Shown: positions 35,719 through 53,682 of the stretch, one piece after another
Position numbering within the stretch: position 1 is the first letter of the stretch
Layout of the letters: every line of letters begins with the position of its first letter
From: an uncultured Monoglobus sp.
GTDB lineage: Bacteria; Bacillota; Clostridia; Monoglobales; Monoglobaceae
Assembly: GCA_947628795.1 (NCBI GenBank)
Contig: CANRBF010000008.1
Span: forward strand, 1-64,000
Direction of reading: 5' to 3'
Length of the DNA stretch: 64,000 nucleotides
Notes under the pieces: model-generated
Told to the model about the DNA's origin: nothing
Database searches by the model: none
The model's input: the letters and a program-made list of their open reading frames with translations, nothing else
Position numbers and translations under genes: made by a program

Positions 35719-38568
35719 ATGAAAAAGACTTTCATTTCCTTTATCACGGCACTGAGCATAGCTCTGTATTCGGCGGCGGGCTTCACCGCATATGCCGACA
35801 TAATGCCCGATAAGGGAACGGACACCGCGGCGTCGAGCGCGCCCACCGCCGCGGGACCCGGCATAAACAACGGCCGCGAAGCCGAGATAATCTCCTTTGA
35901 CGGCACCAACGCTGACGGCACGGTCGACGTTACAAACGGAGTGAGCACCAACCTTATAGAAAACGGCTCGAAATACAACGGCATGGCGGCGCAGCCGATA
36001 ACCGGCGATCAGGCTCAGTCGAGATACAGCAATGTGCGCGTAGCGCTGTCGCCCGACATCGCCGACACCAAGTACGCCGAGGCCGCCGAACTTCTGGGCG
36101 CGCTGGGCATTATGGTGGGCGACGCCGAGGACGGAGCCTTCAGACCCGACGACCCGATACTCAGAAGCGAGATGGCAAAAGTCGCGGTTTACTCGATCGG
36201 ACTTGAGGACGTCGTTAAAAGCTCGGGCGGCTCGACCGGATTTCCCGACGTGCCCGGCGACCACTGGGCGGCCGGCGCGATAAACGTGGCGGACCAGCAG
36301 AGCATGGTCATGGGCGACACCGAGGGCACCTTCAGACCCGACGACTATGTGACGTTCGAGGAAGCAGTTACGATCATCGTCCGCGCTCTGGGCTATGAGC
36401 CCGCGGCCGAGGACAAGGGCGGATATCCGACCGGGTATATGTTCATCGCCTCGTCTAACCAGCTGCTGCGCGGCATTGACGCGGCGGCGGCGGAACCCGC
36501 CAAAAGAGGCGACATCGCGCAGCTGGTGTTCAACGCCATGACCGTCAACCTGATGGAGCAGGTGGGCTACGGCTCGGAGACCAGATACGAGGTCGTTGAC
36601 AAAACGCTGCTCTATGACAGACTGAACGTTGAAAAGGCTTACGGACAGATAACCGGCACGGACGAGACCTCGCTGAAGGGCGGCTCCACTACAGCCGAGG
36701 ACAGAATACAGATCGGCGAGCAGACCTATCTGGCGGGAGACACTACCGCGGCTCAGATGCTGGGCTACAACGTTTTATATTATGCCAGGATCGACAAGCA
36801 AACCGACGAAAAGACCCTCATTCTCGTGACCGAGCAGCAGGGCAAAAACAACACTCTGACCCTCAACTCGTCGGATATAGTCGACGTGACGGGCGAGGAT
36901 GACAGAACGGTCGAATACTGGGCCGACAGAGTAAACGACAGAAGGACCAGAACATCGACCATCACAAAAGACGCTGTCTATATTTACAACGGCAAATTTA
37001 AATCGGACACGGATCTTGACGACTTAAAGCCCGAGAGCGGCAACCTTGTTCTGCTTGACTCGGATGTGAACGGAGTTTATGATATAGTATTCGTGAACCA
37101 CTTCAAGAATCTTGTGGTAGACACCGTATCGGATGTGACCGGCAGAGTGACAGACAAGTATCTGAACGGCTCGCTGGTATTTGACGAAAACAACGAGGAA
37201 GTAAAATACAGCATTGTTAAAGACGGCTACAGGATCGGCCTTGAGGACCTCAAGGAGTGGAACGTGCTGTCGTACACCGTCAGCGAGGACAGCAACCTCA
37301 TCAAGGCCTACGTTTCCGACGCTTCCGTGACCGGCTCGGTGACCGAGGTATCGGACGACGGCTACAGGATAGGCGAAAGCGCGGAGATCTACGAGAAGGC
37401 CTCGAGCTATCCCAACGAGATAAAAATACGCGACCGCGGCACCTTCTATCTGGATATAGAGGACAAGATCGCGGCGGTCAACACAAGGACCGGCTCCGAC
37501 TCGTCGATCACCACCAACTACGCGTACCTTGTGGGCGCGGCCATGAACGACGGCTTTGACAAAACGGCTCAGTTCATGCTGTTCACCAAGGACGGCGAGA
37601 CCGTGATCCTGGAGAGCGGAACCAGAATGAGACTTAATGAGAACTACTCAAAGACTCCCGAGGAAGTCGTGACGGCTCTGGCTCCCGGCGGAGACACGAC
37701 CAAGCAGCTGATAGTTTACGAAACCAACAGCGACGGCAAGATCACAGCGATCGAGACTGCGGCCGACGGCACCGGAACGGGCGCGCCCGCAATAGACAAG
37801 TTCACCAAGAACATCAGCCGCGACGGCATGGTCTACAAGCGCGCTTCGGGCAAGCTGGGCAACGTGGGAATAACCGACGACACGATAATCTTTGACATTC
37901 CCGCATCCGCGGGCGACGACACCGACAAATACTCGATCAGAACGCAGGCCACCCTCTCCAACGACTCGACCTATGACGCGATCATCTACGACCTTCAGGA
38001 GAACTACACCGCCAACGCGGTCGTTATAACAAGCTCCGTGGGCGTCACCGCCGCGGAATCCCCGATAACGGTCGTTGACTATATCGCAGAGGTCCAGAAT
38101 GAGGACTACGAGTACACCGACAAGCTGTACGGCTACAGCGGCGGCGAGAAAGTCGAGCTGCTGGCGGCGGACAAGAGCGTGCTCAGAAAGGGCGGCGAGG
38201 CTCTCGAGACAGGCGACATTATCCAGTACAAGACCAACGCGAAAGGCGAAGTCGACGGAATAACCGTGCTGTTTAATTCCGACAACAAGGAATCCGAGAC
38301 GCTCACAAAAGTGACAAACGACCTCACCACGGTCTACGGCAAGGTGACCCGCAAGTTCAGCGGCAGCGTGAACATCGACGTGTCGGGCGAGATATACAAT
38401 TACTCGACCGGCGACGCCACAGTCTATATGTACGATTCCGCAAGGAGCAGAAATCCCATATCCGTGGTATCCGCGGCCGATATCGAAATTTACGAGGAAG
38501 GCAACGAAGCCAGACTGTTCGTGAAGATCTATCAGGACGAAGTCCAGGAAATGGTTATAGTAAAATAA
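35719..38568 (+). CDS. Large S-layer homology domain surface protein
   Basis: 949 residues. Signal peptide 1-30 (ISFITALSIALYSAAGFTAY). SLH repeats at about 113-300 (EAAELLGALGIMVGDAEDG continuing AFRPDDPILRSEMAKVAVYS; then FPDVPGDHWAAGAINVADQQ and GTFRPDDYVTFEEAVTIIV). The remaining 640 residues are acidic and Thr/Val-rich with recurrent short beta-domains (DVTGEDDRTVEYW, GNLVLLDSDVNGVYDIVFVN, NEVKYSIVKDG-like), no catalytic motif seen. It may be a structural S-layer component. The neighbouring divergent protein (33587-35434) has the same layout, so they are probably related parts of one surface array. Strong AGGAGG before the ATG and a strong terminator after the stop. Confidence 0.88.
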   Translation: MKKTFISFITALSIALYSAAGFTAYADIMPDKGTDTAASSAPTAAGPGINNGREAEIISFDGTNADGTVDVTNGVSTNLIENGSKYNGMAAQPITGDQAQSRYSNVRVALSPDIADTKYAEAAELLGALGIMVGDAEDGAFRPDDPILRSEMAKVAVYSIGLEDVVKSSGGSTGFPDVPGDHWAAGAINVADQQSMVMGDTEGTFRPDDYVTFEEAVTIIVRALGYEPAAEDKGGYPTGYMFIASSNQLLRGIDAAAAEPAKRGDIAQLVFNAMTVNLMEQVGYGSETRYEVVDKTLLYDRLNVEKAYGQITGTDETSLKGGSTTAEDRIQIGEQTYLAGDTTAAQMLGYNVLYYARIDKQTDEKTLILVTEQQGKNNTLTLNSSDIVDVTGEDDRTVEYWADRVNDRRTRTSTITKDAVYIYNGKFKSDTDLDDLKPESGNLVLLDSDVNGVYDIVFVNHFKNLVVDTVSDVTGRVTDKYLNGSLVFDENNEEVKYSIVKDGYRIGLEDLKEWNVLSYTVSEDSNLIKAYVSDASVTGSVTEVSDDGYRIGESAEIYEKASSYPNEIKIRDRGTFYLDIEDKIAAVNTRTGSDSSITTNYAYLVGAAMNDGFDKTAQFMLFTKDGETVILESGTRMRLNENYSKTPEEVVTALAPGGDTTKQLIVYETNSDGKITAIETAADGTGTGAPAIDKFTKNISRDGMVYKRASGKLGNVGITDDTIIFDIPASAGDDTDKYSIRTQATLSNDSTYDAIIYDLQENYTANAVVITSSVGVTAAESPITVVDYIAEVQNEDYEYTDKLYGYSGGEKVELLAADKSVLRKGGEALETGDIIQYKTNAKGEVDGITVLFNSDNKESETLTKVTNDLTTVYGKVTRKFSGSVNIDVSGEIYNYSTGDATVYMYDSARSRNPISVVSAADIEIYEEGNEARLFVKIYQDEVQEMVIVK

Positions 38569-38695: not shown

Positions 38696-39871
38696 ATGGA
38701 AACAAAAAGAAAAAAATCTACGGGCGCGTATGCGGCAGCCTTGGCAGTTTTTGCCGCCGCGCTGCTTATTCTTGCCGCACTTTCCGGCTGCGGCGCTCGG
38801 GAGCAAAATAAATTGATAAAAATAGCCGTTATGGGAAACCCCGATGAATTCCCTCCGCAATACGAGGATGGAATAAAGGCGGGGGCCAAAGAGGCCGACG
38901 CGGAATATTCCGAGAAAGGATATCGGGTTGAGTGCGAGTTTTACGGCGACGGCGGCAGCTACGGGGAGGGAGCGGCCGTTATAGACTCGCTCGCGTACGA
39001 CGGGGAAATAACCGCTATAATCGGCTCGCGGAATATGGACATAAACAAGACCGCGGCGCACGTCTACTCCAAGGCGGACAAATTGTTTGTCGTGCCGTTT
39101 TTCCTGTACGACAGCGTGTATGATAATAATAACTACAGCATGATATTTTCCATGTGCAACTCGGCCGGAACCGTGGGAGAATGTCTGCGCGCCGCGGCCG
39201 CGAACACGGCCGCCAAACGCTGGGCCGTGTGCGCGGCGGAGAACGAGTTCTCGACCGCGGAAATGAACGGCTTTATCGGCGGCTCCGCGGACGACGGGAT
39301 ACAGACGGTCGACTGCGTGGGCATGAGGACGCTCGAAAACGATTTTGACGGCGTATTCAAAAGATGGAAAACCCTCGGCGTCGAGGGGGTCATGATGTTC
39401 CCCGGGGACGAGCGCGGATTTGAGCTGCTCAAGGCGATCCGCGGGCGGGAACCGAACATGGTCTGCGGCGGCGACACGATGTTTGACGATCATGAGATCT
39501 TGCTGGCAAGACCCGATATTATGAGCATAATGCCGGGATTTATAATGGCTAACGAATACGATTACAAAGACATCTCCGCCGACGGAAGAAACGCGTTTGA
39601 AATAGCCGAAAAATACAGCTCCGAAGCGAAAGACGGCTTTGACTCATGGTTCCTTCAGGGATACAACGCCGTGCGTATGGTCGCGGACACCGCGGCCGAA
39701 GCGGACACGACGAACGGCGCGAGAATAGCTGAGCTTTTGCACGAAAACGGCTATAACGGATTGTGCCAGAATTTTAAGTTTGACGAAAAAGGCAAACAGT
39801 CCTCGGATAAATATCTATATTTCGTATTTGCCGAGGAAGGACTGTCGGAACGGATCGAGGTGGATAAATAA
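38696..39871 (+). CDS. Type I periplasmic-binding-protein-like lipoprotein
   Basis: 391 residues. Lipoprotein signal with lipobox LSGC (Cys at about 32), so it is tethered outside the membrane. The mature part is a type I solute-binding fold of the Leu/Ile/Val-binding type: KIAVMGNPDEFPPQYEDGIK (about 42), ITAIIGSRNMDINKTAAHVY (about 104), the RWAVCAAENEFSTAEMNGF hinge (about 176), VEGVMMFPGDERGFELLKAI (about 230) and a C-terminal GYNAVRMVADTAAEA helix. No importer permease is encoded nearby; instead its stop codon overlaps the start of a HlyD-type export adaptor (TAATG). It may sense or capture a ligand related to the exported product. Ligand unknown. Confidence 0.85.
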   Translation: METKRKKSTGAYAAALAVFAAALLILAALSGCGAREQNKLIKIAVMGNPDEFPPQYEDGIKAGAKEADAEYSEKGYRVECEFYGDGGSYGEGAAVIDSLAYDGEITAIIGSRNMDINKTAAHVYSKADKLFVVPFFLYDSVYDNNNYSMIFSMCNSAGTVGECLRAAAANTAAKRWAVCAAENEFSTAEMNGFIGGSADDGIQTVDCVGMRTLENDFDGVFKRWKTLGVEGVMMFPGDERGFELLKAIRGREPNMVCGGDTMFDDHEILLARPDIMSIMPGFIMANEYDYKDISADGRNAFEIAEKYSSEAKDGFDSWFLQGYNAVRMVADTAAEADTTNGARIAELLHENGYNGLCQNFKFDEKGKQSSDKYLYFVFAEEGLSERIEVDK

Positions 39872-40749
39872 TGAGTATGCGAAAAACGGAATTATTCAGA
39901 AAAGAATCCCTCGAAAACGCCTCGGCGCGCAGCGAGACAAAGATCGTGACGCACGCGGTGGGATTAAAATACGCTTTGTTCACGGCCGCCCTGGCGGTAT
40001 GCGCGGCTCTGTTCGCGATCTGGCTCGTGTTCGGAGAGGTCTATGAGACCGTGTCGGTGCAGGGCGTTATTTGGCCGTCCGAGGATTACGGCTCGGTGTA
40101 CGCCGAATACGGCGGCAAGGTTTCAAAGGTCACCGTGTCAAGAGGCGCCAAGGTCAAAAACGGGGACATCATCGCCGTTATCCCCCAGGACGACATCTTG
40201 GGCGAGATCGAAGGCAAGGCCGCCGAGGAGCGGAGCGCCTTATATGACGAGTATGACAAACGCTCGGTTATCCGCGCGGAAACCGACGGGATAGTCACAT
40301 ACATAGTAAACGAAAACGAGTACGTGGCGCGGGGAGACAAGATCGCGGATATCACCCCGTATGACGAGAGCGGAAACAATATGACGCTGACCGCGTTTAT
40401 CCCGGCGGACAAGGGCGGGCTCGTTTCTCTCGGAGCGGACGTGCAGGTGATGCTCGATTTCGCGCCGAGGGAAAAATACGGCTACATAAACGCGTATGTC
40501 TCGGAAATATCGCAGTACCCCATGAACGGGGAATACATAAAGGAAAACATGAGCGATCTGTATCTGCCGTCCATCGAGGAAAGAAACAGTTATCTGCAGC
40601 TTGAGATAACGCTTCTCGCCGACGCCTTGACCGCGAGCGGCTTGAAATGGTCAAGCCCGGTGGGTGAGGATATCGACGCTCCCATGGGAACGGTCTGCAC
40701 GGCCGATATAATCGTGGAAAAACACCGCCCGTATCAGTGGTCGTTTTAG
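39871..40749 (+). CDS. HlyD-type export adaptor (membrane-fusion protein)
   Basis: 292 residues. One membrane helix (about 30-52, GLKYALFTAALAVCAALFAI) then a lipoyl-like/barrel domain: VYAEYGGKVSKVTVSRGAKV (about 79-98), KNGDIIAVIPQDD, a short helical part (about 112-130), and VIRAETDGIVTYIVNENEYV (about 135-154). The long coiled-coil hairpin of Gram-negative HlyD is nearly absent, as in accessory proteins of Gram-positive bacteriocin exporters and NHLP-system secretion proteins. It begins inside the stop of the binding lipoprotein and ends 9 bases before the C39 exporter, so it should assemble with that exporter. Confidence 0.86.
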   Translation: MSMRKTELFRKESLENASARSETKIVTHAVGLKYALFTAALAVCAALFAIWLVFGEVYETVSVQGVIWPSEDYGSVYAEYGGKVSKVTVSRGAKVKNGDIIAVIPQDDILGEIEGKAAEERSALYDEYDKRSVIRAETDGIVTYIVNENEYVARGDKIADITPYDESGNNMTLTAFIPADKGGLVSLGADVQVMLDFAPREKYGYINAYVSEISQYPMNGEYIKENMSDLYLPSIEERNSYLQLEITLLADALTASGLKWSSPVGEDIDAPMGTVCTADIIVEKHRPYQWSF

Positions 40750-40758
40750 GAGGATCAT

Positions 40759-42900
40759 ATGAAAAGCTTAAAAAAAATCCGTCCGATCTTACAAATGGAA
40801 AAGACCGAATGCGGCGCGGCGTCGCTGGCGATGATACTGCGGTACTACGGAAAAGAAGTGACGCTTGAGGAGCTGCGCCGCGAGTGCGGTGTATCAAGAA
40901 ACGGCGTAAACGCCAAAAATATAGTAAAAGCCGCGGGGCTTTATAACTTAAAAACAAGGGCGTTCCGCGCTGATATCGAGGATCTTGAAAGCCTCAATAT
41001 GCCGCTTATCATACATTGGGACATGAACCATTTTCTGGTCCTGTGCGGTTTTGAGAAAAACAGAGCGGTACTGGCCGACCCCGCGTACGGGATAAGGTCC
41101 GTGCCTATGGACGAGTTTTCAAGATCATTCACGGGTATCGCGATAGAGCTGACGCCCGACGAGAACTTCAGACCCGACAAGGCCCATAAAAAACAGGGCG
41201 GCTACGCGGCGTCATGCGTTAAGCCCTTTTGGAAGTACGCCTTTTATTTCGCGCTCATAGAACTGTGCGCGCTGACCGGCAGCGCCGCGCTGCTTTTCCT
41301 AAACTCGGTATATATCGACAAAGTCCTGATCGGGGCGAACGCCCAGCATTTTAAGATCCTGCTGGGCGTGCTTATCGTGGCGGGATTTATCACGGTCAGC
41401 GCGTCGGTCCTGCGCGAGGGCGTCAGGTACCGAATAAGCAAACGCCTTAACATAATCATAAATTCGGGCTTTATCCGTCATATTCTGAGGCTCCCGATAG
41501 AATTTTTCGCCGAGCGCAGCAACGGAGATCTGACAAACAGATACAACTCGTCCATGCTTATGGGAGAGCGCGTGACAAATCTTCTGACGCCCGTTCCGGG
41601 ATATATAATACAGATCGCGGCCTATGTGCTGATACTGATATTATTCGACGCGCATATCGCGGTTATCGGCATATTGCCGGCGCTCGTCAACATCGCGGTG
41701 ATACGCGCGTGCGCGGACAGCTACAGAAAAAAGTCGGGCGCATTGAGCCGTGACGCGGGCACGCTTCAAGGCGGCGTGTCGGCGGCGGTCGGCGCGATCG
41801 AGACGATAAAATCCAGCGGCTCGGAGGACAGCATGTTCGAGCGCCTTATCGCGTCAGGCACAAAGCTTTTGAACACAAAAATCGAGATCGACAAGACCGA
41901 TGTCTTGACCGACAGCCTGTTTTCGTTTATAAACGCTTTGACCTCGGGCGCCGTCTTGATCTTCGGAGTGTGGGAGATACTTTCGGGAGACGTGACCGTG
42001 GGAGTTTTGATCGCTATGCAGTCTATCACGGCGGCCATGCTCGTGCCGGTCGGCGAGGCGATAAACTCCGAGCGCGAGGCCCACAGCCTGCTCAGCGAGA
42101 CCGCAAGGAGCGACGATGTTATGCGCTGCAAAACAGACGACAAATTCCTTGACGAATCAGTCGAGCAAACGGCGGATATCGACGGGGACATAGAATTCAA
42201 AAACGTGAGCTTCGGCTACAGCGCCGTGGACGAGCCGCTCATACAAAACCTGAATTTGAAGATAAAAAAGGGCAGCCGCGTCGCGATAACCGGCAAAAGC
42301 GGAAGCGGAAAAACGACGGTCGCGAACATGATCGCCGGACTTTACCGCGAGACCAAAGGCAGCGTCACCTTTAACGGCATAGAGAGAAAGGACATCGCGC
42401 GCTCGTATTTTTATTCGAAAACGGCGGTGGTGAGCCAGAACATACGCCTGTTTGACGGAAATATTATTGAAAACATAACCATGTGGGATGATTCCGTGCC
42501 CTATGACGATGTGGTAAGGGCGGCCAAGGCTGCGTGCATACACGAGAATATAATAAGCCGCAAACACGGCTACCGCGAGCGCGTCACCGAGAACGGCTCG
42601 AATTTCTCGGGAGGCGAGCGGCAGCGCATAGAGATCGCTCGCGCGCTGTTGAAAAAACCGTCGCTCATTATAATGGACGAGGCGACGAGCGCGCTTGACG
42701 CCGACACGGAGGAAAAAGTGATGAACAACATAAAGGCTCTGGGGATAACCGCCGTCATAGTCGCGCACAGATGCTCGGCGATCTCGGACTGCGACGAGAT
42801 AATCGTGATGGACCGCGGAAAGATCGCCGAGCGCGGGACGCACGAAAAGCTCCTGGCCAAAAACGGCGCATACAGCGCTCTGATAAGGAGTGTGAGCTGA
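40759..42900 (+). CDS. Peptidase-C39 ABC exporter (double-glycine peptide processing and export)
   Basis: 713 residues. Residues 1-140 are a C39 cysteine protease with the catalytic Cys in EKTECGAASLAMI (about 18), His in WDMNHFLVLCGF (about 93) and Asp in VLADPAYG (about 111). Six membrane helices occupy about 155-440. The ATPase has Walker A AITGKSGSGKTTVANM (about 512), signature NFSGGERQRIEIARALL (about 614), Walker B LIIMDEATSALD (about 638) and VIVAHRCSA. Such proteins cut leaders after Gly-Gly and export the peptide. Similar to the peptidase/permease/ATPase of NHLP-type systems. AGGAGG precedes the ATG. A matching double-glycine peptide is encoded at 53481-53639. Confidence 0.95.
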   Translation: MKSLKKIRPILQMEKTECGAASLAMILRYYGKEVTLEELRRECGVSRNGVNAKNIVKAAGLYNLKTRAFRADIEDLESLNMPLIIHWDMNHFLVLCGFEKNRAVLADPAYGIRSVPMDEFSRSFTGIAIELTPDENFRPDKAHKKQGGYAASCVKPFWKYAFYFALIELCALTGSAALLFLNSVYIDKVLIGANAQHFKILLGVLIVAGFITVSASVLREGVRYRISKRLNIIINSGFIRHILRLPIEFFAERSNGDLTNRYNSSMLMGERVTNLLTPVPGYIIQIAAYVLILILFDAHIAVIGILPALVNIAVIRACADSYRKKSGALSRDAGTLQGGVSAAVGAIETIKSSGSEDSMFERLIASGTKLLNTKIEIDKTDVLTDSLFSFINALTSGAVLIFGVWEILSGDVTVGVLIAMQSITAAMLVPVGEAINSEREAHSLLSETARSDDVMRCKTDDKFLDESVEQTADIDGDIEFKNVSFGYSAVDEPLIQNLNLKIKKGSRVAITGKSGSGKTTVANMIAGLYRETKGSVTFNGIERKDIARSYFYSKTAVVSQNIRLFDGNIIENITMWDDSVPYDDVVRAAKAACIHENIISRKHGYRERVTENGSNFSGGERQRIEIARALLKKPSLIIMDEATSALDADTEEKVMNNIKALGITAVIVAHRCSAISDCDEIIVMDRGKIAERGTHEKLLAKNGAYSALIRSVS

Positions 42901-42901
42901 T

Positions 42902-45022
42902 ATGAACGCGCAAAAAGAAAACGAGTATCTCGCGCAGCGGAACAAGGGGGAGCGACGGGAAGCGTACGAGAATCTGCGCGCCGCCGTCCACAAGAAAAAA
43001 GAAAATGACGGGGTCAACGCCGTCCTGAAATTTTTAAACGTAAAGGGCAGGGTAGACCCGAATCTTTCGCTTGATGAGCAGCTTGAATATATAGAGGAAA
43101 AATATTTCATAAAAAGCAGGCGCGTCGAGCTTGAGGCCGACTGGCACAGGATCGCGGCGCTCCCTATGCTGGCGGAAACGGCCAACGGAGAGCGCCTTGC
43201 CGTGCTGCCGAATACCGTCGGCGGCTGCGCGTGCGTGAAGGACGGCAAATCGGTTAAAGTAACGCGCAAAAACACCGATATTTTTAAGAAAGACGCGATA
43301 TGCTTTTATAAGACCATGACAAACGAAAGCGTCGGCGAGCGCGGGTTCGCGTCGTTCCTGCTGGGCTGCACCTCGGTGCGGGACAAGGTCACGGCCATTA
43401 CCGCGAGCGCGCTGGCGATATTGGCGGGAATGATAATCCCCTGGGCGAACAGCTTTATATTTTCGAATATCGTTCCCGAGGGAGACATACCCGCGATGTT
43501 CTCCGCGGCGGCGCTGATAATCGCGGCGGTTTCCGCGGCGGCGCTTATGCGGTTGTTCCGGTCGCTGTCGCTCACGAACGCCATGACGCGCGTCGGCACA
43601 TATGTCCAGAGCGCGCTGTTTGCGAGACTTTTGAATATAGTTCCGGGATTTTTCAGGGATGTCAAATCGGGCAAGCTGTCGCAGCTTATCACCGATTTTT
43701 CGGATATGTCAAAGATCATATCGGTCAGAAGCGTCAGCGCGTGTATTGCCCTTGTTTTGTCGCTTTTGTATCTGATACAGATACGCATATACGCTCCCGC
43801 CATGTTCGGCTGGGTGGTGCTGGTCACGATCATTCTCGCGGCAATGATAACCGCCGAGAGCGTTATGAGCGCGCGCTGGCAAAAGCGCTACAGCGCCTCT
43901 CTGTCGGATATGTCCGCTTTCGCGCATGAGATTTTTTCGGGTATGGAGCGCGTGAAACTTGGCGGTGCCGAATCGAGAATGTACCGCCGCTGGAGCGAAA
44001 AATACCGAGACACGGCGATACGAGGCGACAAGCCGTTTTTGTTGAGATATTCCGAGTCGTTTTACAAGCTGCTCACGGTGGTATCAACGGCGCTGATCTT
44101 CCTGCTCGGCCTGAACACGCTCGCCTCCGACTACATAGCGTTCTATGCCGCGTACGGCGCGTATATCGCGGCGGTCTCGGGCTCCGCGGCTATCATAGAC
44201 ACCATAGGCAGGTTCCGCTCGTCATACGCGCTCATAAGCGGCGTTCTCACGGCGGAGTGCGAGGAATACGGCTCTAAACTGAAACCCAAAGAGCTCAAGG
44301 GCGATATTGATATATCCGACGTGTATTTCCGTTACTCAAAGGATTCGCCCTATGTTATAAACGGTCTGTCGGCGCATATCAAAAGCGGCGAAAGCATAGG
44401 CATCGTTGGCGCCTCGGGCTGCGGAAAGTCTACGCTTGTGAGACTTTTGCTGGGCTTTAACGCGCCCGACGAGGGGAGCATATATATAGACGGCTTTGAT
44501 ATGCGCGAGCTGGATTTAAAGAGCTGCCGCCGAAAGATCGGGACCGTGCTTCAGGACTGCGGGCTTATAGCGGGAGATATTTTCTCGAACATAACCATGA
44601 CAAAGTCCGACGCGTCCGAGGACGAGGTGAAAGCCGCTGTCGCCGCCGCGGGGCTCTCGGAGGATACAGCCGAGATGCCGATGGGGCTGTATACTCCGAT
44701 CGACCCCGAGAACCACACGTTCTCGGGCGGGCAGAAGCAGCGCATACTCATAGCGAGAGCGCTTATATCAAATCCGTCGATACTCATTCTGGATGAGGCG
44801 ACATCGGCGCTCGACGGAATAACCCAGGCCGGGATCATAGAAAACATAAACAAGCTTGACTGCACAAAAATAATAGTCGCCCACAGGCTGACGACGATAG
44901 AGAAATGCGACAGGATTTTTGTGATGGACAAGGGAACCATAGCGGCCGAGGGAACATACGACGAGCTTAAAGAAAAAAACGAGTTATTTAAAAAGTTTGC
45001 GAAAAGACAGCTCCCGATCTGA
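42902..45022 (+). CDS. NHLP-type ABC exporter, permease/ATPase subunit without peptidase
   Basis: 706 residues. Starts one base after the stop of the C39 exporter. An N-terminal cytoplasmic domain (about 1-150: EYLAQRNKGERREAYENLR, then VNAVLKFLNVKGRVDPNLS and ADWHRIAALPMLAE) takes the place of the C39 peptidase and has no catalytic Cys-His pair. Membrane helices are at about 165-440. ATPase: GIVGASGCGKSTLVRLLLGF (about 500), signature FSGGQKQRILIARAL (about 609), ILILDEATSALD (about 632), IVAHRLTT. Pairs of a C39-ABC and a non-peptidase ABC of this kind, with a HlyD partner, define NHLP export systems; here both are adjacent, so a heterodimeric pump is likely. A hairpin terminator overlaps the stop. 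Confidence 0.9.
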   Translation: MNAQKENEYLAQRNKGERREAYENLRAAVHKKKENDGVNAVLKFLNVKGRVDPNLSLDEQLEYIEEKYFIKSRRVELEADWHRIAALPMLAETANGERLAVLPNTVGGCACVKDGKSVKVTRKNTDIFKKDAICFYKTMTNESVGERGFASFLLGCTSVRDKVTAITASALAILAGMIIPWANSFIFSNIVPEGDIPAMFSAAALIIAAVSAAALMRLFRSLSLTNAMTRVGTYVQSALFARLLNIVPGFFRDVKSGKLSQLITDFSDMSKIISVRSVSACIALVLSLLYLIQIRIYAPAMFGWVVLVTIILAAMITAESVMSARWQKRYSASLSDMSAFAHEIFSGMERVKLGGAESRMYRRWSEKYRDTAIRGDKPFLLRYSESFYKLLTVVSTALIFLLGLNTLASDYIAFYAAYGAYIAAVSGSAAIIDTIGRFRSSYALISGVLTAECEEYGSKLKPKELKGDIDISDVYFRYSKDSPYVINGLSAHIKSGESIGIVGASGCGKSTLVRLLLGFNAPDEGSIYIDGFDMRELDLKSCRRKIGTVLQDCGLIAGDIFSNITMTKSDASEDEVKAAVAAAGLSEDTAEMPMGLYTPIDPENHTFSGGQKQRILIARALISNPSILILDEATSALDGITQAGIIENINKLDCTKIIVAHRLTTIEKCDRIFVMDKGTIAAEGTYDELKEKNELFKKFAKRQLPI

Positions 45023-45043
45023 GCGTATCGGGAACTGTTTTTA
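45012..45043 (+). terminator. Terminator (possibly leaky) after the exporter genes
   Basis: Arms TCCCGAT (45012-45018) and ATCGGGA (45027-45033), 8-base loop with the stop codon, then ACTGTTTTTA. Confidence 0.6.
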
Positions 45044-45076: not shown

Positions 45077-45105
45077 TGTTTTTGGCGTAAAGCTTTGATA
45101 TAATT
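45077..45105 (+). promoter_or_regulatory. Promoter of the giant SLH gene and peptide gene
   Basis: TTGTTT, a 17-base spacer and TATAAT (-10 at about 45100-45105), followed by an AT-rich leader with the repeated ATAATTATAAATAAAA and AAGGAGG before the ATG at 45160. Confidence 0.5.
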
Positions 45106-45159
45106 AATTATAAATAAAAATAATTATAAATAAAAATTAAATCATAAGGAGGAAAAATA

Positions 45160-48100
45160 ATGACGGAGAAAACAAAAAGGAAACTCAAAAGACTGCTGAG
45201 CGCCGTGCTGGCTTTGGCGGTCGCGGTTACTTTTATTCAGATCCCCGTTTTCGCGGAGGGCGATCCGATATATCTGCCCGATGCCGAGCTGAGCGAGGCG
45301 GCGCTGAACTGCGGCGCGTTCAATCTGTCGGTCACGGGAGCGGAACTTGATGAAAACGCGGGCGCGCCGTATCTTTTCAGGGTACAAAGAGGCGGCGATT
45401 ATCTGCCCGAAGCCGAGCTTCGTCTGGACATGATCGACATCACCGCGAAATACGGCGACGATTACACGGTCAAGCTGTATGACGGCGGCGAAAGCGTGGA
45501 AAATTCCAAAAATAGCAAGTCGATCATAGATGAGATGATCGAGCACTCGGACGAGATCGAGGAAGAAAACGACACCGACTACATAATTTCGGGCGAGATG
45601 CCTGACACCGAGGAGGAGCTGGAGGCCTTTAAAGAGGATGCGGAGATCGGCGCCGAGTATGTGGCGGAAATGTTCGGATTGAACACCGGCGCGGAACCCT
45701 CGGAGGAGCCCGCGGCGGAACCCTCGGAAGAACCTGCGGCGGAACCCTCGGAGGAGCCCGCGGCGGAACCCTCGGAAGAACCTGCGGCGGAGGCCTCGGA
45801 GGAACCCGCGGCGGAACCCTCGGAAGAGCCGTCGGAAGCAAATGCTGAAACGGCAAATGAAGGAACGGCGGAGAGCGGCGCGGCTTTGGCGGCGGACGCT
45901 TCGACCCTGCGCGGCATAAAGAGCCTCGCCACGGGCCTTGAGAATGACATAGCCCCGATGGACGGCGGAAACGCGAGCACCGAGACATCGCGGCTCATGA
46001 CCGAGGAGATGCTCAACGGTCTGGCCATGTCGCTCGAAAGCGCGTATCTTCCGCTGAACTTCAGCGAGGGCGAGACCGAAAAATACATAGCGATCACCCC
46101 GAAAGATAATTCAAAAGGCGACGGCGACAGAATGCTCACGATCAACCTTGTGGCGGAATCGCAAAACGCAATCGTCGGCTTATCCGGCATGAGCGTTTCT
46201 ATTATTGACGACGAGGTGCAGGAGGAAGCGACGGTCGAGTTTTCGGACGCCGAGTACCACCCCTCGGACGGATACATAAAAGTGAAGGTCGTTCGCAGCG
46301 GCGCGATAAATCAAGTGGTGTCGGTAAAGCTCTCGACCGAGGACGAGACGGCGGTCAAGGACCGCGATTACTCTCAGGTCGACACGACGCTGGTGTTCCC
46401 CTACGGAGTGAGCGAGAGGACGATAAATATTCCGACGCGAAGCGATTACGCCGAGGAGAACGCGTCGTTCAAGCTCAAGCTGCACAGCCCCGTAAGCTGC
46501 GAGCTCGGCGCGCTCAGTATTTCGCACGGCGTTATCGACACGCGCAGCGAGAGCTTTGATTTTAAGGGCACCGATCACGAGATAGAGGACGGCGCCGCGG
46601 AGGCGGCGGCTGACGCCACCGTGTCGGACATAATACTCGGCGAAAAACAGGATCTGAATTCGTTTTTTAACCGGGTCGAGACGTATGGCGAAGACGCTGC
46701 GAGCAGGGTCAACGAAGACGAGATTGTGATGACCCTGCCCGGCTTTATCACGCTTGATACTTCGATCAAGTTGATCTCCGATACGGGAAGGCACTATGAC
46801 TACAGCGGATATCAGCTGGATTGGACAAAGGAATCGGGCTTGTTTAACTTTTCGCATACCAGAGTAAACGGCGGCGCCGCGAACAACGAGGAGCGCTGGC
46901 CCAGACGAAAGGATAATTTCTTCCGGGATCCCTCGAGCACCACAATGTCCGTTGAGTTATACACGAACGCGCTTGTCACCTCGTCGACCAAACTGACGAT
47001 CCATTCGATAACCCCGATCCTGAGGCCCTACGAGGTGTCTCTCGCCCCGTCGGAGCCGCTCAAGTTTTTGAACGAGAACGGAGAATATGTCGAAAACACA
47101 AAAATAGCGCGGCTCAAAAACGCCAACGACACGATCCTTCAGAACGCGAGCACCAACGGCAAGGGAACGGCGGTAAAATTCAGCGGAGACTATATAACGG
47201 TAACGACAAACAGCCCCTACTCGTATATTTCGGGCCTTGAGATCGTCAACCCCGATACGGGCGCCTCAAGGCTGATACTGAACGGGCTCAAGCCCGGAAC
47301 CACCTCCGCGTCGGTGCAGCTTGACAACGACTTTATGACGACATATAGCAAATATATAAAATACGTGAACAACGGCAATCAGGGACAGAAGGGACAGTTT
47401 CAGGTAAGAGCCGTGCTCGATTACTACGACGTCGGCGTTAATATTCACGAGGACCCCAACGCGTCGGTCACGATGACCAATATAGAGCCACCGTCCACGA
47501 ACGATAATTATATCACATCGGGAGATTACTATATAAAGAGCGCGACCACAGGCAAATACTTAAAGCTTTATATTGACAACGAATATTCGTATCCCCACAC
47601 GTATCCCAATGACGCTGTAATGGACAGAAGCGAGGGAACGCCATTCACTGTCATTCCCGCCTCCGAGTACCGCGGCGGCGTCGGGGAAAACAGCGTCGTT
47701 ATAGCGCTCTCGGGCGGAAACTACGGTTTGTCCACGGCGGGTCGACCGATGGAATTCGGACCCAATCTGTGCCATTGCGGCAAGCTCAGCATTTCGTCCA
47801 TGGGCGGCCAGAACATGTTCACGATCGCCAAGCAGGACGACGGCACCTACGTTATAAGCGACCTTGCCTATCACGCGGTGTCAGAAAGCGGAAACGGCGT
47901 CTCATATGAATGGTCGTATCACCCCGAGAGATTGACCGACAAGGCGAAATGGATACTCGAGCCCGCGAACGCGGGATACAAAAAAGACGCTTGGACACTG
48001 CACCGCGGCGACACGGTAAAGTTCACACAGAATATAAATAACGCGCAGTACAAAAGCTCGCGCATAAGATTCGTGACGCGCGAAACGTCTACCGCGGAGG

Positions 48101-51100
48101 AGATCGACGTCAGACGGGCGTACGATAAGGACAGCGCGGATACCTGCACGATGTTCTGCGACTACTCGAGCATAGACGTTTACCCGAGCTACGAGGAAAG
48201 TATGCAGGTCATCGTCAGGGTATCCAAGAAGGATTATATATTCTTCCAAAAGGACAAGGGCATATTCACCTGTCCCCGCGTTGAGAACGGAGATTATTAT
48301 GACTATATAGTCACCGACGAGGACCACTTCGCCGAATCGATGTATTACGAATATTCGGCCTACGGGCTGTATGATGGATACGTGCCGATATGGAACAGCA
48401 TGTACGCGCAGAACACGTATTATTTCAGAACGCACAATGTGGCGAGGTATAATGTGATACCTCTGTCGATACAAAGGACCGGCTCACAAAAGTATGTTCT
48501 GACCGGCAGCGCGCGTTATTCCGACACATCGATCAACGGTACCGCCGAGGGAAGCGCGTGGATGCCCGCCAAGGGCGCCTATGTGCTGATGGGCAGCACC
48601 ACTTACGGAATATCGGACGACGACGGAAACATCACCACGATCGCCGCGCCCGGAATTCTGGACGGCCGCTACCGCGTTATTTACAAGACGGTCGCGTCGG
48701 GAATGACGAGCTACAGGGAGGCGTCTCTGCGAAACGGCAATATGATAGAATACACCGAAAACACATACGATCCGGACACCGGCGAAGTGACGGGCACGAT
48801 CACCCAAAGTGCGTACGCCATTGACATAGGCACGCTCCTCGTCTCGCCGACCGACAGGTCCGCCCCGTATCCCGAGGCGTTTGTGGCGACCATGTCAAAC
48901 GGAGTCCAGACCGACACCGTGCAGATAAACGACGACATCACGGACTTTGATATCACCATAAACAACAACCACGCGGCGTACACCGACACGGACGGTGTTG
49001 AGCGCGAGGAAAAGGTAACCGCCGTGGACGTTATAATTTACGACGGACAGACCAACGCCGAAAAGACCGTGCTCAGCGGAGCGAAGGAGGTCTCCGACGA
49101 GGGCGGCATCAGCGTGTGGAGACTGGGCACCTCCTTTGCGCGGGGCAAACCCGAGGAATACCGCGCCAGCGACAAGGTGTATGTGAGAATAACGACCGAC
49201 AAGCTCATAGGAAACGGCAATAGCGTGGACGCGGACGGAAATGAAACGCCGTCCGAGGCGCTCAGTCAGACGGTCTACGCCCCCGTCTACACGGGCTACA
49301 CCCTTTCGCAGAGCAACACGCAGCAGCCCGTGACCCAGGATATCAACCCGCAGACGTATCTGAACTTCGTAAACCTCCCGTTTATAGGCGCGATGGACAC
49401 ATCGTTTCTCGTGTCGTTCATCTCTCTGTCCATAACGGAGCTTCCCAACGGAGGCGAGCGTCTGTCGTTCGGCATTTCGCCCACGTGCCTCGTTAAGGGC
49501 GACAAAATAAAAAATGTGGAAACGGAAGTTGACTACGGACTCAGCTTCAGCGACATAAAGCAGGCCTTCAGCGAGACCAAGGAATGGGGAGATGCCGTAA
49601 ACATGCTCGGAAAGCCCTTCGGGCGCTCCCACTATTTGGGCATGAGGGCGTTTGCGATAAGGCCGATCTTCGGACTCTATCTCGATTTTGGACTTAAATC
49701 CCTGAACATGAACAACGAGACAAAAATGACCATGTCGTTCATGGGCGGCGGCCTGTTTCTGGGCGGCTCGGCGTATTTCCGCGCCACGTTGTATTTAACT
49801 ATAGGCTGGCTGCCCATATATTTCGGCGTCGACGGAGAGCTGACGATATACACCCAGGTGGGAGTGTCGTCGATAACCAATGCCGAGGACGTCACGCCCA
49901 ACATGATAATGAGCGAGTCCAACACGTTTGAAGATTATTTCGTGCCCTCGTGGTGTCTGCAGGCCAACGTGATTGTCGCGGTATACGCGGGCGTGGGCCT
50001 GTGCGGAACCCTCGGCGTGCGCGGCGGCTTCCAGCTCGACATGAACTTCATGTACAACATCACGATACAAAAGCTTTATCCCGGTATCAGAAATCTGGGC
50101 GCGGTGCTGGATTTCAAGTTTAAGCTCTGGGTCGACGCGCTCTTATTCTCGATCCCCATCCCTGTGGCGAGCATTGCGAAAAGGCGCTACGGCTACTATG
50201 AGGATATAGCGAAATCCGATATCGAGGGCGGCTTTACTCCCGAACCCGCCAAGTCCGCCGAGGCGGCCGAGGCCGAGGACGAAGGCGCGCAGGTGGTTAT
50301 GCGGCCAAGGAACGAGAATCAATCCGAGTGGCTGCCAAACGGCGGCGTGAGCGCGGCGAGCACCTTTGAGGAAGCGTCGACCACGGTGCTGCTCGAAAAC
50401 GGCTACGACAGAGCCGATCCGCAGCTTATCGACCTGGGCGGCGGCAGGACACTTCTGGTGTTCATAGCCGACGATCCGACGCGCGGCGACAGCGACAGAA
50501 CTGCGCTTATGTACAGCGTGTACGAAAACGGAACATGGTCGCAGCCCGTCAAGATCCAGGACGACGGAAAGGCCGATTTTGAGCCCGACCTGTGCGACGC
50601 GGGAGATAAGATCCTTATCACGTGGACATCGAGGAACGCCGATACTCCCTCCGCGAGCGAAACGGATTACTTAAAGAGCATGGACGTATACGCGGCGACC
50701 CTCGACAAGCAGACGCTTGAGCTGAGCCCGATAGAGCAGCTGACGAACGACACCGACAAGGGATTTTACGACAGCGCCCCCGTCGGACTTTACGACGACA
50801 CAAGCGGCGATATGCTGGTTTATTACCTCAAGTCCGAGGTCAAAGACGGCGATTTTGAGACTTCGGTAATGCCCACAAAGAACGAGAGCGTGATCGTTTA
50901 CATGCTCTATGACGCGTCAAATGGACAGTGGGCGAGAGATTACTATTACCCGAACGAGGTGTCCGGCACTGAAGCCGAGCAGGAGCTTATCAAGAACTGG
51001 GGCGGCCAGAGGTTCCTTTCGTCGCCGATAAAGGAATTCGGCGTCAACTCGCCCGTTATCATAGACTTTGACGCGATAAGCTATAACGGCATAGGACTTT

Positions 51101-53454
51101 ACACATTCACGGTCGATCAGGACAACAACATGGACACCGACGCGGACAGAGAGCTTTTCCTGCAGGCGTACGACTTCGACACCCACACCACATATGTGCC
51201 CGTGCGGATAACCGAAGATAACCTTGCCGACGCGCGTCCGCAGCTCGTAAGAAACGGCGACCATACGTATCTGTTCTGGCTCGAAAACAACAAGGACATC
51301 CGCTACATAAACGTTACCGACCTGATCAAGAACGGCGTCAACCCCGACGGCTCGATCATCAAAGACGGCTACGAGCTCAATATCGGCGCGGTATTTTACG
51401 CCGACACTTCGGGCAAAGACGGCAGCATCATGGACCCGTCCTTCGGCAGCTACAACGCGTTTGTGGACAAAGACAACAATCTGTTTATAACATGGCTGCA
51501 GCCCATAAAGCAGGACGACGGCACAAGCAATCAGGAGATATACGCGACGGCGCTTATCCGCGACGAGAACGGCATGAGCTGGTCTGACGGCGTGAGACTG
51601 ACCGACAGCGGAGCGCAGAACGACGAGGTCGCGTTCCTCACGGATGAAAACGGCGATCTGCTCACCGTGGGCAACAGATACAAGGTCGACTTCACGGATG
51701 ACGCGCAAGAGATAAAAGATATGCAGCTTATCGCGACAAATTACAAAACGGTCGGCTCCCTTGACGTCACGGCAGCGGAGTTTACAGACACCACTCCGAC
51801 CGCGGGCAGTGAGAACGAGGTGACGATCACCGTTAAAAACACCGGTCTCAAGACCGCCAAGGGCTACACGATGGACATCTACGAAAAGGTGAACGGAGCC
51901 GTGGGCGAAAAGCTTGAAACTATCACCTCGGATGAGGCGATAACCCCGTCCTCGGCCGTGTCGACGGAGTTCACGTGGACGATGCCCGAGAGCTATGAGG
52001 GAATCGACGATCTGTCGCTGTACATCACGGTAAACGAGGCCGAGACAAGCGAGATAAGCGAGTTCACAAGCGACAGCATCGACATAAGGCCCGAATATAA
52101 CATCACAAGCTGTGAGGTCACGGAGTCGTCCGACGGTTTCTATCTGACCTATACCATTGAGAATACGGGCAACGCGGACGCGGTGCCCGACGACGAGGAG
52201 TCGGCCGACAAATTTAAAGTTAAGTTCAACAACATATACTATAAGGTCGGCAAACCCGAGACGTATCTCGAGGTTCCGATAGCCGGTCTGGCCGTTGGCG
52301 AAACGCAGACGAACACCATGCGGCTCGAGGTTCCCGAGGACAAATTCGAATTCGGATACAGCGAGGCGTACGCGGTCGTTGAGAACAAGGACGAAAATAT
52401 CGTCAGCAACTATGAGGCGTTCCGCCTGATACTCGAATATCCTTACAATATTTCGATAAACGGCGACAGCTACATTTCGAGAATAGAGCTGAAGGAAGGC
52501 GAAAGCATTGAGCTCAACGCGGATTACTCGCCGAAGGAGTTCTACGCGGGCGGCACGGTAAAATATTCCGTGGCCGACGCATCGGTGGCGAGTGTCGAAG
52601 GAAACACCCTGACAGCCGAGGCCGCGGGCGAAACCGAGCTCACGGCGATAGTCGAGCCGTACGGCGGATATAAGACCGTGACCGTCGCGGTACAGGGCGA
52701 GCAGGAGCCCGAGGAGTCGGCCTCTCCGACGCCCGACCGCAGGCCGTCCTACGGCGGAGGCATAGGCGGCTCCGACTTCTCGACCTCGGCATCCGCTCCG
52801 ACGGCCGCGCCCGAAGCGACGCTTGTTCCCGAAGCCTCGGCATTGCCGAAAGCCTCGGCGGATCCCGAGACCACTCCGGGCGCCTCCGAGAATGAGCAAA
52901 CCGGATTTAAAGACGTTTCTCCCGATGACTGGTTCTATGAGAGCGTGAAATACGTTTCGGACAACGGATATTTCACGGGCGCGAGCGAGGATATGTTCGA
53001 GCCTGACGCAAGCGTCACAAGAGGAATGTTCGCGGCGGTACTCGGCCGCATGAGCGGAGTTCCGTCGGGCAGCGCCGACACGGGATTCACGGACGTTGAC
53101 AGAGACGAGTATTACGCGCCGTACATAGCCTGGGCTGCCGAAAACGGTATCGTTCTGGGCTACGGAGACGGCACCTTCGGCCCCGAGGACCTTGTGACGC
53201 GCGAGCAGGCCGCGGCAATGATGTGGCGGTACGCGCAGTATATCGGCGCGGATGTGTCCGCGGGCGAGAATGCGGATATATCGGGCTTTGCCGACTCGCA
53301 GCAGGTGAGCGAATACGCGGCTTCCGCCCTTCGCTGGGCCTGCGGCTCGGGCATTATCGTAGGCGACAACGGTGCGCTGCTGCCGCAAAATAATGCCACG
53401 CGCGCGGAAACGGCGGCGATAATCGAGAGATTTGACAAACTGATAAAACAGTAA
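45160..53454 (+). CDS. Giant multidomain S-layer homology surface protein
   Basis: 2764 residues. Signal peptide about 1-32 (LSAVLALAVAVTFIQIPVFA). A Calx-beta-like domain (about 50-115, DITAKYGDDYTVKLYDGGES), an AEPSEEPA repeat linker (178-224), a second Calx-beta (about 350-450, TEDETAVKDRDYSQVDTTLV), a beta-trefoil-like part (about 785-945, GDYYIKSATTGKYLKLYID), a Gly-rich aromatic region (about 1510-1640), a sialidase-like propeller (about 1737-2200, repeated ADPQLIDLGGGRTLLVFIAD and FEPDLCDAGDKILITW blades), CARDB domains (about 2200-2420), a Big_2 domain (about 2430-2515), a Pro/Ser linker, and three C-terminal SLH repeats (about 2580-2764, FKDVSPDDWFYESVKYVSD). No protease or glycosidase motif was found. 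Anchored on the wall polymer, it is likely an adhesin or scaffold. Followed 26 bases later by a double-glycine peptide gene. Confidence 0.92.
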   Translation: MTEKTKRKLKRLLSAVLALAVAVTFIQIPVFAEGDPIYLPDAELSEAALNCGAFNLSVTGAELDENAGAPYLFRVQRGGDYLPEAELRLDMIDITAKYGDDYTVKLYDGGESVENSKNSKSIIDEMIEHSDEIEEENDTDYIISGEMPDTEEELEAFKEDAEIGAEYVAEMFGLNTGAEPSEEPAAEPSEEPAAEPSEEPAAEPSEEPAAEASEEPAAEPSEEPSEANAETANEGTAESGAALAADASTLRGIKSLATGLENDIAPMDGGNASTETSRLMTEEMLNGLAMSLESAYLPLNFSEGETEKYIAITPKDNSKGDGDRMLTINLVAESQNAIVGLSGMSVSIIDDEVQEEATVEFSDAEYHPSDGYIKVKVVRSGAINQVVSVKLSTEDETAVKDRDYSQVDTTLVFPYGVSERTINIPTRSDYAEENASFKLKLHSPVSCELGALSISHGVIDTRSESFDFKGTDHEIEDGAAEAAADATVSDIILGEKQDLNSFFNRVETYGEDAASRVNEDEIVMTLPGFITLDTSIKLISDTGRHYDYSGYQLDWTKESGLFNFSHTRVNGGAANNEERWPRRKDNFFRDPSSTTMSVELYTNALVTSSTKLTIHSITPILRPYEVSLAPSEPLKFLNENGEYVENTKIARLKNANDTILQNASTNGKGTAVKFSGDYITVTTNSPYSYISGLEIVNPDTGASRLILNGLKPGTTSASVQLDNDFMTTYSKYIKYVNNGNQGQKGQFQVRAVLDYYDVGVNIHEDPNASVTMTNIEPPSTNDNYITSGDYYIKSATTGKYLKLYIDNEYSYPHTYPNDAVMDRSEGTPFTVIPASEYRGGVGENSVVIALSGGNYGLSTAGRPMEFGPNLCHCGKLSISSMGGQNMFTIAKQDDGTYVISDLAYHAVSESGNGVSYEWSYHPERLTDKAKWILEPANAGYKKDAWTLHRGDTVKFTQNINNAQYKSSRIRFVTRETSTAEEIDVRRAYDKDSADTCTMFCDYSSIDVYPSYEESMQVIVRVSKKDYIFFQKDKGIFTCPRVENGDYYDYIVTDEDHFAESMYYEYSAYGLYDGYVPIWNSMYAQNTYYFRTHNVARYNVIPLSIQRTGSQKYVLTGSARYSDTSINGTAEGSAWMPAKGAYVLMGSTTYGISDDDGNITTIAAPGILDGRYRVIYKTVASGMTSYREASLRNGNMIEYTENTYDPDTGEVTGTITQSAYAIDIGTLLVSPTDRSAPYPEAFVATMSNGVQTDTVQINDDITDFDITINNNHAAYTDTDGVEREEKVTAVDVIIYDGQTNAEKTVLSGAKEVSDEGGISVWRLGTSFARGKPEEYRASDKVYVRITTDKLIGNGNSVDADGNETPSEALSQTVYAPVYTGYTLSQSNTQQPVTQDINPQTYLNFVNLPFIGAMDTSFLVSFISLSITELPNGGERLSFGISPTCLVKGDKIKNVETEVDYGLSFSDIKQAFSETKEWGDAVNMLGKPFGRSHYLGMRAFAIRPIFGLYLDFGLKSLNMNNETKMTMSFMGGGLFLGGSAYFRATLYLTIGWLPIYFGVDGELTIYTQVGVSSITNAEDVTPNMIMSESNTFEDYFVPSWCLQANVIVAVYAGVGLCGTLGVRGGFQLDMNFMYNITIQKLYPGIRNLGAVLDFKFKLWVDALLFSIPIPVASIAKRRYGYYEDIAKSDIEGGFTPEPAKSAEAAEAEDEGAQVVMRPRNENQSEWLPNGGVSAASTFEEASTTVLLENGYDRADPQLIDLGGGRTLLVFIADDPTRGDSDRTALMYSVYENGTWSQPVKIQDDGKADFEPDLCDAGDKILITWTSRNADTPSASETDYLKSMDVYAATLDKQTLELSPIEQLTNDTDKGFYDSAPVGLYDDTSGDMLVYYLKSEVKDGDFETSVMPTKNESVIVYMLYDASNGQWARDYYYPNEVSGTEAEQELIKNWGGQRFLSSPIKEFGVNSPVIIDFDAISYNGIGLYTFTVDQDNNMDTDADRELFLQAYDFDTHTTYVPVRITEDNLADARPQLVRNGDHTYLFWLENNKDIRYINVTDLIKNGVNPDGSIIKDGYELNIGAVFYADTSGKDGSIMDPSFGSYNAFVDKDNNLFITWLQPIKQDDGTSNQEIYATALIRDENGMSWSDGVRLTDSGAQNDEVAFLTDENGDLLTVGNRYKVDFTDDAQEIKDMQLIATNYKTVGSLDVTAAEFTDTTPTAGSENEVTITVKNTGLKTAKGYTMDIYEKVNGAVGEKLETITSDEAITPSSAVSTEFTWTMPESYEGIDDLSLYITVNEAETSEISEFTSDSIDIRPEYNITSCEVTESSDGFYLTYTIENTGNADAVPDDEESADKFKVKFNNIYYKVGKPETYLEVPIAGLAVGETQTNTMRLEVPEDKFEFGYSEAYAVVENKDENIVSNYEAFRLILEYPYNISINGDSYISRIELKEGESIELNADYSPKEFYAGGTVKYSVADASVASVEGNTLTAEAAGETELTAIVEPYGGYKTVTVAVQGEQEPEESASPTPDRRPSYGGGIGGSDFSTSASAPTAAPEATLVPEASALPKASADPETTPGASENEQTGFKDVSPDDWFYESVKYVSDNGYFTGASEDMFEPDASVTRGMFAAVLGRMSGVPSGSADTGFTDVDRDEYYAPYIAWAAENGIVLGYGDGTFGPEDLVTREQAAAMMWRYAQYIGADVSAGENADISGFADSQQVSEYAASALRWACGSGIIVGDNGALLPQNNATRAETAAIIERFDKLIKQ
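45691..45831 (+). repeat. 24-bp tandem repeat in the giant SLH gene
   Basis: About six units of GCGGAACCCTCGGAGGAGCC plus CGCG, each encoding AEPSEEPA. Units 1 and 3 are identical to each other, as are units 2 and 4, so a 48-bp pair was duplicated. Length is likely to vary between strains. Confidence 0.9.
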
Positions 53455-53480
53455 GAACAAAAAATAAAGGAGGAATAAAA

Positions 53481-53639
53481 ATGTCCCAAGAAAAGAACGA
53501 AAAAAATATCAAAAATCCCGAAAAGCTTCAGGAAATTGATTTTGACGATCTGGAAAAGGTGACCGGCGGCAGCGCTTTTGACACTATTCCGCGCGTGCCC
53601 GAGAAACCCATAGACGACAATTTAAAGTCAAAAATATAA
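53481..53639 (+). CDS. Double-glycine leader peptide (putative substrate of the C39 exporter)
   Basis: 52 residues, found by reading the DNA after the giant SLH gene. AAGGAGGA lies 7 bases before the ATG. Leader residues 1-30 are charged (MSQEKNEKNIKNPEKLQEID) and end FDDLEKVTGG, which matches the double-glycine consensus with Leu at -7, Val at -4 and Gly at -2/-1. The predicted mature part is 22 residues, starting SAFDTIPRVPEKP and ending NLKSKI: no Cys, three Pro, four acidic and four basic residues, not strongly hydrophobic. That is unlike pore-forming class II bacteriocins, and it lacks Cys for lanthionine or disulfide chemistry, so a signalling or surface-binding peptide is as likely. 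The exporter genes lie upstream at 39871-45022. Confidence 0.82.
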   Translation: MSQEKNEKNIKNPEKLQEIDFDDLEKVTGGSAFDTIPRVPEKPIDDNLKSKI

Positions 53640-53648
53640 TTTAAACAA

Positions 53649-53682
53649 TAAAAACGGATAGACAAAAATCTATCCGTTTTTT
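53649..53682. terminator. Bidirectional terminator after the peptide gene
   Basis: Arms AAAACGGATAGA and TCTATCCGTTTT around CAAAAA, followed by TTGTTTTG. It closes the peptide gene and, on the other strand, mgtE. Confidence 0.85.

Follow-up and report, generated by a model that had tools for sequence, protein, structure and literature searches.

Peptides with a double-glycine (GG) leader are usually taken to be antibiotics or pheromones, and pheromones do use GG leaders and C39 exporters. Among the solved systems, PCAT1 (4ry2) and ComA (8hf4) have, to our knowledge, no second ABC gene. The NHLP/Nif11 system (TIGR03794/03796/03797) has three exporter gene types, encoding a HlyD-like protein, a C39-ABC protein and a peptidase-less ABC protein, and its precursors carry leaders of about 70–83 amino acids, are cleaved at Gly-Gly and have hypervariable cores (Haft et al. 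2010, PMC2887384). That a C39 cargo may be structural and not an antibiotic has a precedent in MAM of Faecalibacterium, an abundant envelope protein encoded beside an exporter gene, for which C39-type export (PCAT) has been proposed; it has 135 amino acids with a MMMPAN leader and is modelled as a hexamer, and the portion of that source drawn on here notes neither a giant partner nor a second ABC gene (PMC12184118). The locus described here lies in a window of 64,000 nucleotides, by which we mean the whole stretch of Monoglobus sp. DNA that was analysed, and it has the same three exporter gene types as NHLP/Nif11, while its C39-ABC protein is similar over the full length to PCAT1 and ComA, from which cargo and operon differ. 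It departs from NHLP/Nif11 in that the proposed partner of the peptide is a giant surface protein, the exporter scores under the cut-offs of the models, the leader has 30 amino acids and the core is conserved, with modification enzymes not recognised. With class II bacteriocins and ComC-type pheromones the peptide has its double-glycine leader in common, but its core is conserved and neutral and no recurring immunity or kinase gene was recognised.

The initial annotation had proposed a short ORF with a Shine-Dalgarno sequence 26 bases past a giant SLH gene and before a terminator, and all of these features were recovered. The gene encodes 52 amino acids (53481..53639, + strand, from the ATG to the end of the stop codon) and is recognised by its open frame with a Shine-Dalgarno sequence, by homologues beside giant genes and by purifying selection. 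A gap of 26 bases separates its ATG from the end of the giant gene at 53454, and the Shine-Dalgarno sequence AAGGAGG (53467..53473, +) stands 7 nt 5′ of the ATG; GGAGG-type sites also precede most of the peptide homologues. On its 3′ side is a terminator-like hairpin with 13 pairs and a T tail (53650..53681, +), a consensus match only. A chance ORF was ruled out by homologues that carry both the GG motif and the core and stand next to homologous giants in different genera and families, and by purifying selection on the codons of the core. This comparative evidence shows that the peptide gene is real, conserved, under selection and tied to the exporter and the giant.

The product, MSQEKNEKNIKNPEKLQEIDFDDLEKVTGG-SAFDTIPRVPEKPIDDNLKSKI, comprises a leader of 30 codons ending IDFDDLEKVTGG (53481..53570, +; from the sequence and alignment A4) and a predicted mature core of 22 amino acids, SAFDTIPRVPEKPIDDNLKSKI (53571..53636, +; from alignment and dN/dS, with a putative cleavage point). 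In A4, which holds 13 sequences, L(-7), V(-4) and the first Gly are invariant and the second Gly is kept in 12 of 13, in agreement with the C39-peptidase consensus claimed earlier for this leader. I(-12), D(-8), L(-7), V(-4) and GG match that consensus, including a hydrophobic residue at -12 and V/I at -4, with D at -8 where the consensus, in the part of the source consulted, has E (PMC12184118). The core is Cys-free and hydrophilic, and its four acidic and four basic residues give a net charge of 0, so that the balanced charge and lack of Cys first noted for it hold. Pooled over nine independent pairs, core dN/dS was 0.15 and leader dN/dS 0.39; with all eleven pairs the values were 0.13 and 0.28, respectively. 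They are rough, as some pairs approach saturation at synonymous sites. A ratio near 1 would have counted against a functional peptide; at about 0.13–0.15 the core is, by its codon substitutions, under purifying selection and more tightly held than the leader. Two types of core were distinguished, resembling GAFDNVPRVPEHKIDDSLRSKI (type A) and SIKNVQYTKTVEISDDTRSKI (type B), both usually with a C-terminal motif close to I-D/S-x-D-x-K/R-x-K-I. Neither NVPRVP nor IPRVPEKP is printed in the literature searched, weak evidence that the peptide motif is undescribed.

The exporter genes lie upstream on the same strand, and the complete set with a C39 peptidase that had been described there was confirmed for the HlyD, C39-ABC and second ABC genes. 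The operon opens with a Peripla_BP_6 binding lipoprotein (38696..39871, +; 70.7 bits; N-terminal lipobox-like LAALSGC) with no permease adjoining, followed by a HlyD-like adaptor (39871..40749, +; TIGR03794, 121 bits, cut-off 156.2), a NHLM_ABC1-like C39 peptidase/permease/ATPase (40759..42900, +; TIGR03796, 747.7 bits, cut-off 853.3; Peptidase_C39, 128 bits) and a second, NHLM_ABC2-like ABC exporter subunit that is C39-less (42902..45022, +; TIGR03797, 542.6 bits, cut-off 709.4). NHLP export models rank first for all three exporter proteins, yet all score under the curated cut-offs, and by sequence the exporter is NHLP-like, related to but outside the TIGR03794/03796/03797 equivalogs. Its C39-ABC protein has Q12, C18, H91 and D107 and is the sole full-length C39-ABC match in the source genome. 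A terminator-like hairpin (45012..45033, +; consensus match only) closes the exporter genes and a promoter-like site stands 5′ of the giant (45095..45124, +; 10/12 matches, weak, with 0.6 expected by chance). As both elements fall in the gap from the second ABC gene to the giant, the giant and peptide genes may share a transcript apart from the exporter, as judged from these consensus matches only. Every complete exporter operon contains the binding lipoprotein (38696-39871 in the window), a permease-less orphan of amino-acid type, always at the same place; its copy in L095 is cut at the edge of the stretch taken. Directly upstream of the operon are two more SLH-domain proteins, encoded divergently at 33587-35434 (-) and 35719-38568 (+).

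Homologues were sought by whole-genome search of Clostridia with the peptide alone, and the neighbourhoods were fetched afterwards. They turned up in one further genus of the family as well as in different families of the class, and 33 intact peptide genes were counted, all adjoining a giant gene or one gene off: 22 in family f16, that of the window and ten from other genomes (including L017, L018, L021, L022, L024, L097, L098, L099, L102 and L104). The initial annotation had suggested searching the 52 residues and the neighbours of homologous giants, and such GG-leader homologues, with the core kept, do stand by giants across Clostridia. The giants beside peptides are about 2,200–3,400 amino acids long when complete, several being cut by contig ends. 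The exact order binding lipoprotein-HlyD-ABC1-ABC2-giant-peptide occurs at ten loci (the window, L022, L095, L145, L149, L152, L155, L157, L162 and L163), and the adjacency of peptide and giant holds among giants that are only about 25–35% identical. Four genomes have two giant-peptide pairs and, where checked, one close C39 exporter match. In G021, whose genome is 81% complete, there is a pair and no match to the C39 exporter was found. Giants of related kind without a peptide also exist, the second giant of the source genome among them, so the peptide is not required by every giant of the family. No recurring immunity, modification or receptor gene was seen in the loci, in which the operon's own proteins were the sole reference for labelling neighbours.

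Of 70 genomes of family f16, 23 have the exporter C39 domain, and the 18 in which the peptide was detected (E below 1e-6) are all among these, giving 18 genomes with both, 5 with the exporter only, none with the peptide only and 47 with neither (Fisher p 1.5e-12, which overstates independence because the f16 genomes are related). Co-occurrence with the C39 exporter, an earlier suggestion for checking the peptide, was therefore seen on both sides, with the exporter in 18/18 peptide genomes and the peptide in 0/47 exporter-less genomes. Among the exporter-only genomes, one has an exporter 39% identical, by a Nif11-like peptide (L192), and another (G428) has the full exporter set, with no giant on its short contig. 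In a sample of the class, 8/8 bona fide peptide genomes had a giant match, against 57/391 overall (p 1.3e-7).

We also compared distances across the ten complete operons. Core distance correlated with giant distance at r 0.71 (p 0.001) and with HlyD, ABC1 and ABC2 distance at r 0.40, 0.39 and 0.35, respectively, and a partial Mantel test of core and giant given ABC1 gave r 0.69 (p 0.0018). The mean exporter distance was 0.33 both within and between core types A and B; between types, core distance was 0.73 as against 0.29 within them, and giant distance 0.78 as against 0.51. By region, over 23 pairs, the core-giant correlation peaked at giant residues 1801-2150 (r 0.76-0.78), a peak that may come from better alignment of this conserved part. 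The covariation fits the giant as the peptide's partner, but linkage alone could yield it, since the two genes adjoin and may travel together as a cassette, and such joint movement would give part of the signal.

The giant surface protein (45160..53454, +; 2,764 amino acids, 8.3 kb) has a Sec-type signal peptide, Calx-beta, a barrel-like meander, a beta-propeller, a CARDB/Big-like region and three SLH domains. Its residues 1284-2335 were modelled with AF2 (mean pLDDT 70.5), and from this model and fold searches a beta-propeller is predicted at residues ~1734-2200 (50359..51759, +), which is the best-conserved part of the giant. The propeller model matched the seven-bladed Photorhabdus lectin PLL2 (6rfz) with a VIA Z of 29.1 and an rmsd of 2.6 over 306 aligned residues, and it has the same fold as the PLL/PHL lectins across the whole domain, although at 13% identity this is a shared fold only; the Foldseek list for the model has sialidases on top. 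The giant is thus predicted to carry a lectin-like seven-bladed propeller. The meander (residues ~1494-1680; 49639..50199, +) consists of seven long amphipathic beta strands, whose alternating hydropathy recurs throughout the giant family, and comparison with autotransporter and porin barrels gave a VIA Z of 11.2 to 3qq2_B (rmsd 4.4, 182 aligned) for a model with a mean pLDDT of 57. A Foldseek search with the meander returned nothing significant (E above 0.4), and we describe it, with low confidence, as a barrel-like beta module. An Omp85 (PF01103) profile search of six carrier genomes found no match, with positive controls detected; this rules against a diderm origin of the module, makes a true outer-membrane role for the giant unlikely and leaves a barrel-like module as an oddity in genomes that lack BamA. 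In one locus (L017) the giant has a sortase-type tail instead of SLH and the peptide is still there, which indicates that the anchor of the giant is exchangeable.

We propose that the 52-residue ORF encodes the substrate peptide of the upstream NHLP-like exporter, that the first ABC protein, through its C39 domain, would cleave it after Gly-Gly and that the exporter would put the Cys-free, neutral core of about 22 residues outside the cell. There the core would serve the giant, either as a dedicated ligand or as a small subunit, and would most likely bind a conserved part of it such as the beta-propeller. The first of these steps agree with the initial annotation, in which a hidden double-glycine peptide was served by the upstream C39 exporter, and which is upheld by the kept GG leader and core, the co-occurring exporter and the low core dN/dS; cleavage and export are nevertheless inferred from sequence, with export well supported and secretion of the peptide very probable. 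The functional link between peptide and giant is an extension beyond that annotation, and on the comparative evidence it is the most likely interpretation. We consider it probable that the peptide, once exported by the C39 protein, serves the giant as a ligand or a small subunit, with the partnership drawn from comparison and physical binding and a binding site more speculative. The conserved core, the dedicated exporter and a peptide type that tracks the giant point to a third use of double-glycine peptides, the building or controlling of a cell-surface structure, suggesting that peptide and giant act together as an undescribed surface system and not as an antibiotic. The 22-residue core and the propeller region supply a testable pair, and a set of NHLP-like exporters that would otherwise be annotated as bacteriocin exporters gains a likely cargo in the peptide. 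A more elaborate version, conceivable but on balance doubtful, is a monoderm Clostridial surface machine in which the exported peptide would plug, gate or lock into the giant with its propeller and membrane-barrel-like module, each peptide type being matched to a giant type.

Instead of serving the giant as a ligand or subunit, the peptide could be a secreted pheromone, processed and exported by the C39 protein and sensed at the surface, perhaps by the binding lipoprotein or by the giant. The lipoprotein is present in every complete operon (the L095 copy being cut at the start of the locus), but its distance is the weakest correlate of core distance (r 0.26, p 0.095), and the match of the leader to the ComC pheromone family PF03047, at 16.2 bits, is below the gathering cut-off of 20.4. 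Furthermore, among the neighbours in the fetched loci, as labelled against the operon's own proteins only, neither a histidine kinase nor a regulator was recognised as recurring, and the core is nearly invariant across genera, which specific pheromones typically are not. We therefore regard a pheromone as unlikely. An unmodified class II-like bacteriocin leaving through the NHLP-like exporter would account for the GG leader, the C39 exporter and the short core, but we judge it improbable: the core is hydrophilic, uncharged overall and without Cys, it is under strong purifying selection and not diversifying, the peptide is tied to a giant surface protein, and no small immunity gene was noticed to recur among the complete operons, with small ORFs surveyed unsystematically. 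The initial impression that the core is unlike known bacteriocins is supported. Likelihood is lower again for the precursor of a modified natural product with its enzymes elsewhere in the genome, a reading that draws on the resemblance of the exporter to one defined with modified NHLP/Nif11 precursors, which may lie far from their enzymes (PMC2887384). No modification enzyme was recognised in the operon, the core lacks Cys, an NCBIfam profile search at E 0.1 gave zero matches for the peptide, including to NHLP/Nif11 precursor models, and the conserved core differs from hypervariable NHLP cores (PMC2887384).

The distribution of the peptide, taken here as probable ligand or subunit of the giant, is patchy. 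It was present in 2 of 38 family genomes, including the source genome, and absent in 11/11 sampled genus mates. Retention of the ORF and its GG motif in close relatives, on which the initial annotation had relied as a check, is thus not seen for the ORF (0/11 genus mates); decay of the motif is not indicated, since the mates searched are without the whole giant-peptide locus. The core of the window giant shares 74% identity with that of G021 and 70% with one in G377, from another family, but 50% with the second giant of the source genome. For formate-THF ligase the identities are 98% with a genus mate, 69% with G021 and 66% with G377. That a surface protein which evolves fast has kept as much similarity as a housekeeping enzyme suggests horizontal transfer, with repeated loss possible. 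That peptide and giant are merely linked as a mobile surface cassette and functionally unrelated would suit this patchy spread and the giant shared with another family, but is very improbable given that their adjacency is kept at such low giant identity and that core type tracks giant type across the ten operons. A plasmid or phage origin of the peptide was set aside, as tblastn with the peptide gave no match at E up to 10 in the plasmid or the phage collection, and in a sample of 398 phylum genomes the matches beyond the source genome were all weak and confined to the leader part of the model.

Several minor observations were made in the same loci. The second giant of the source genome (L090 8455-16209, G000:C10), with a core about 50% identical to that of the window giant, has genus-mate orthologues at 79-86% and neither peptide nor exporter adjoining; no peptide for it was found in 400 nt downstream or by genome search. 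In another genome (G023), an ABC2-like gene and a giant flank a GG-type peptide of a different kind, which has several cysteines (L103 8803-9033). A core remnant without N-terminal leader and without a giant (L156 4756-4845, G443:C27), either a pseudogene or an assembly chimera, was left out of the count. In two loci (L104 3355-3546 and L161 9223-9417) the peptide, whose leader ends in Gly-Ala, lies upstream of the giant, and this sister arrangement has two extra genes of about 159 and 455 codons after ABC2. Finally, two peptide genes of one genome (L095 14769-14909 and L096 7314-7454) have identical leader DNA beside strongly different giants, for which gene conversion is possible.
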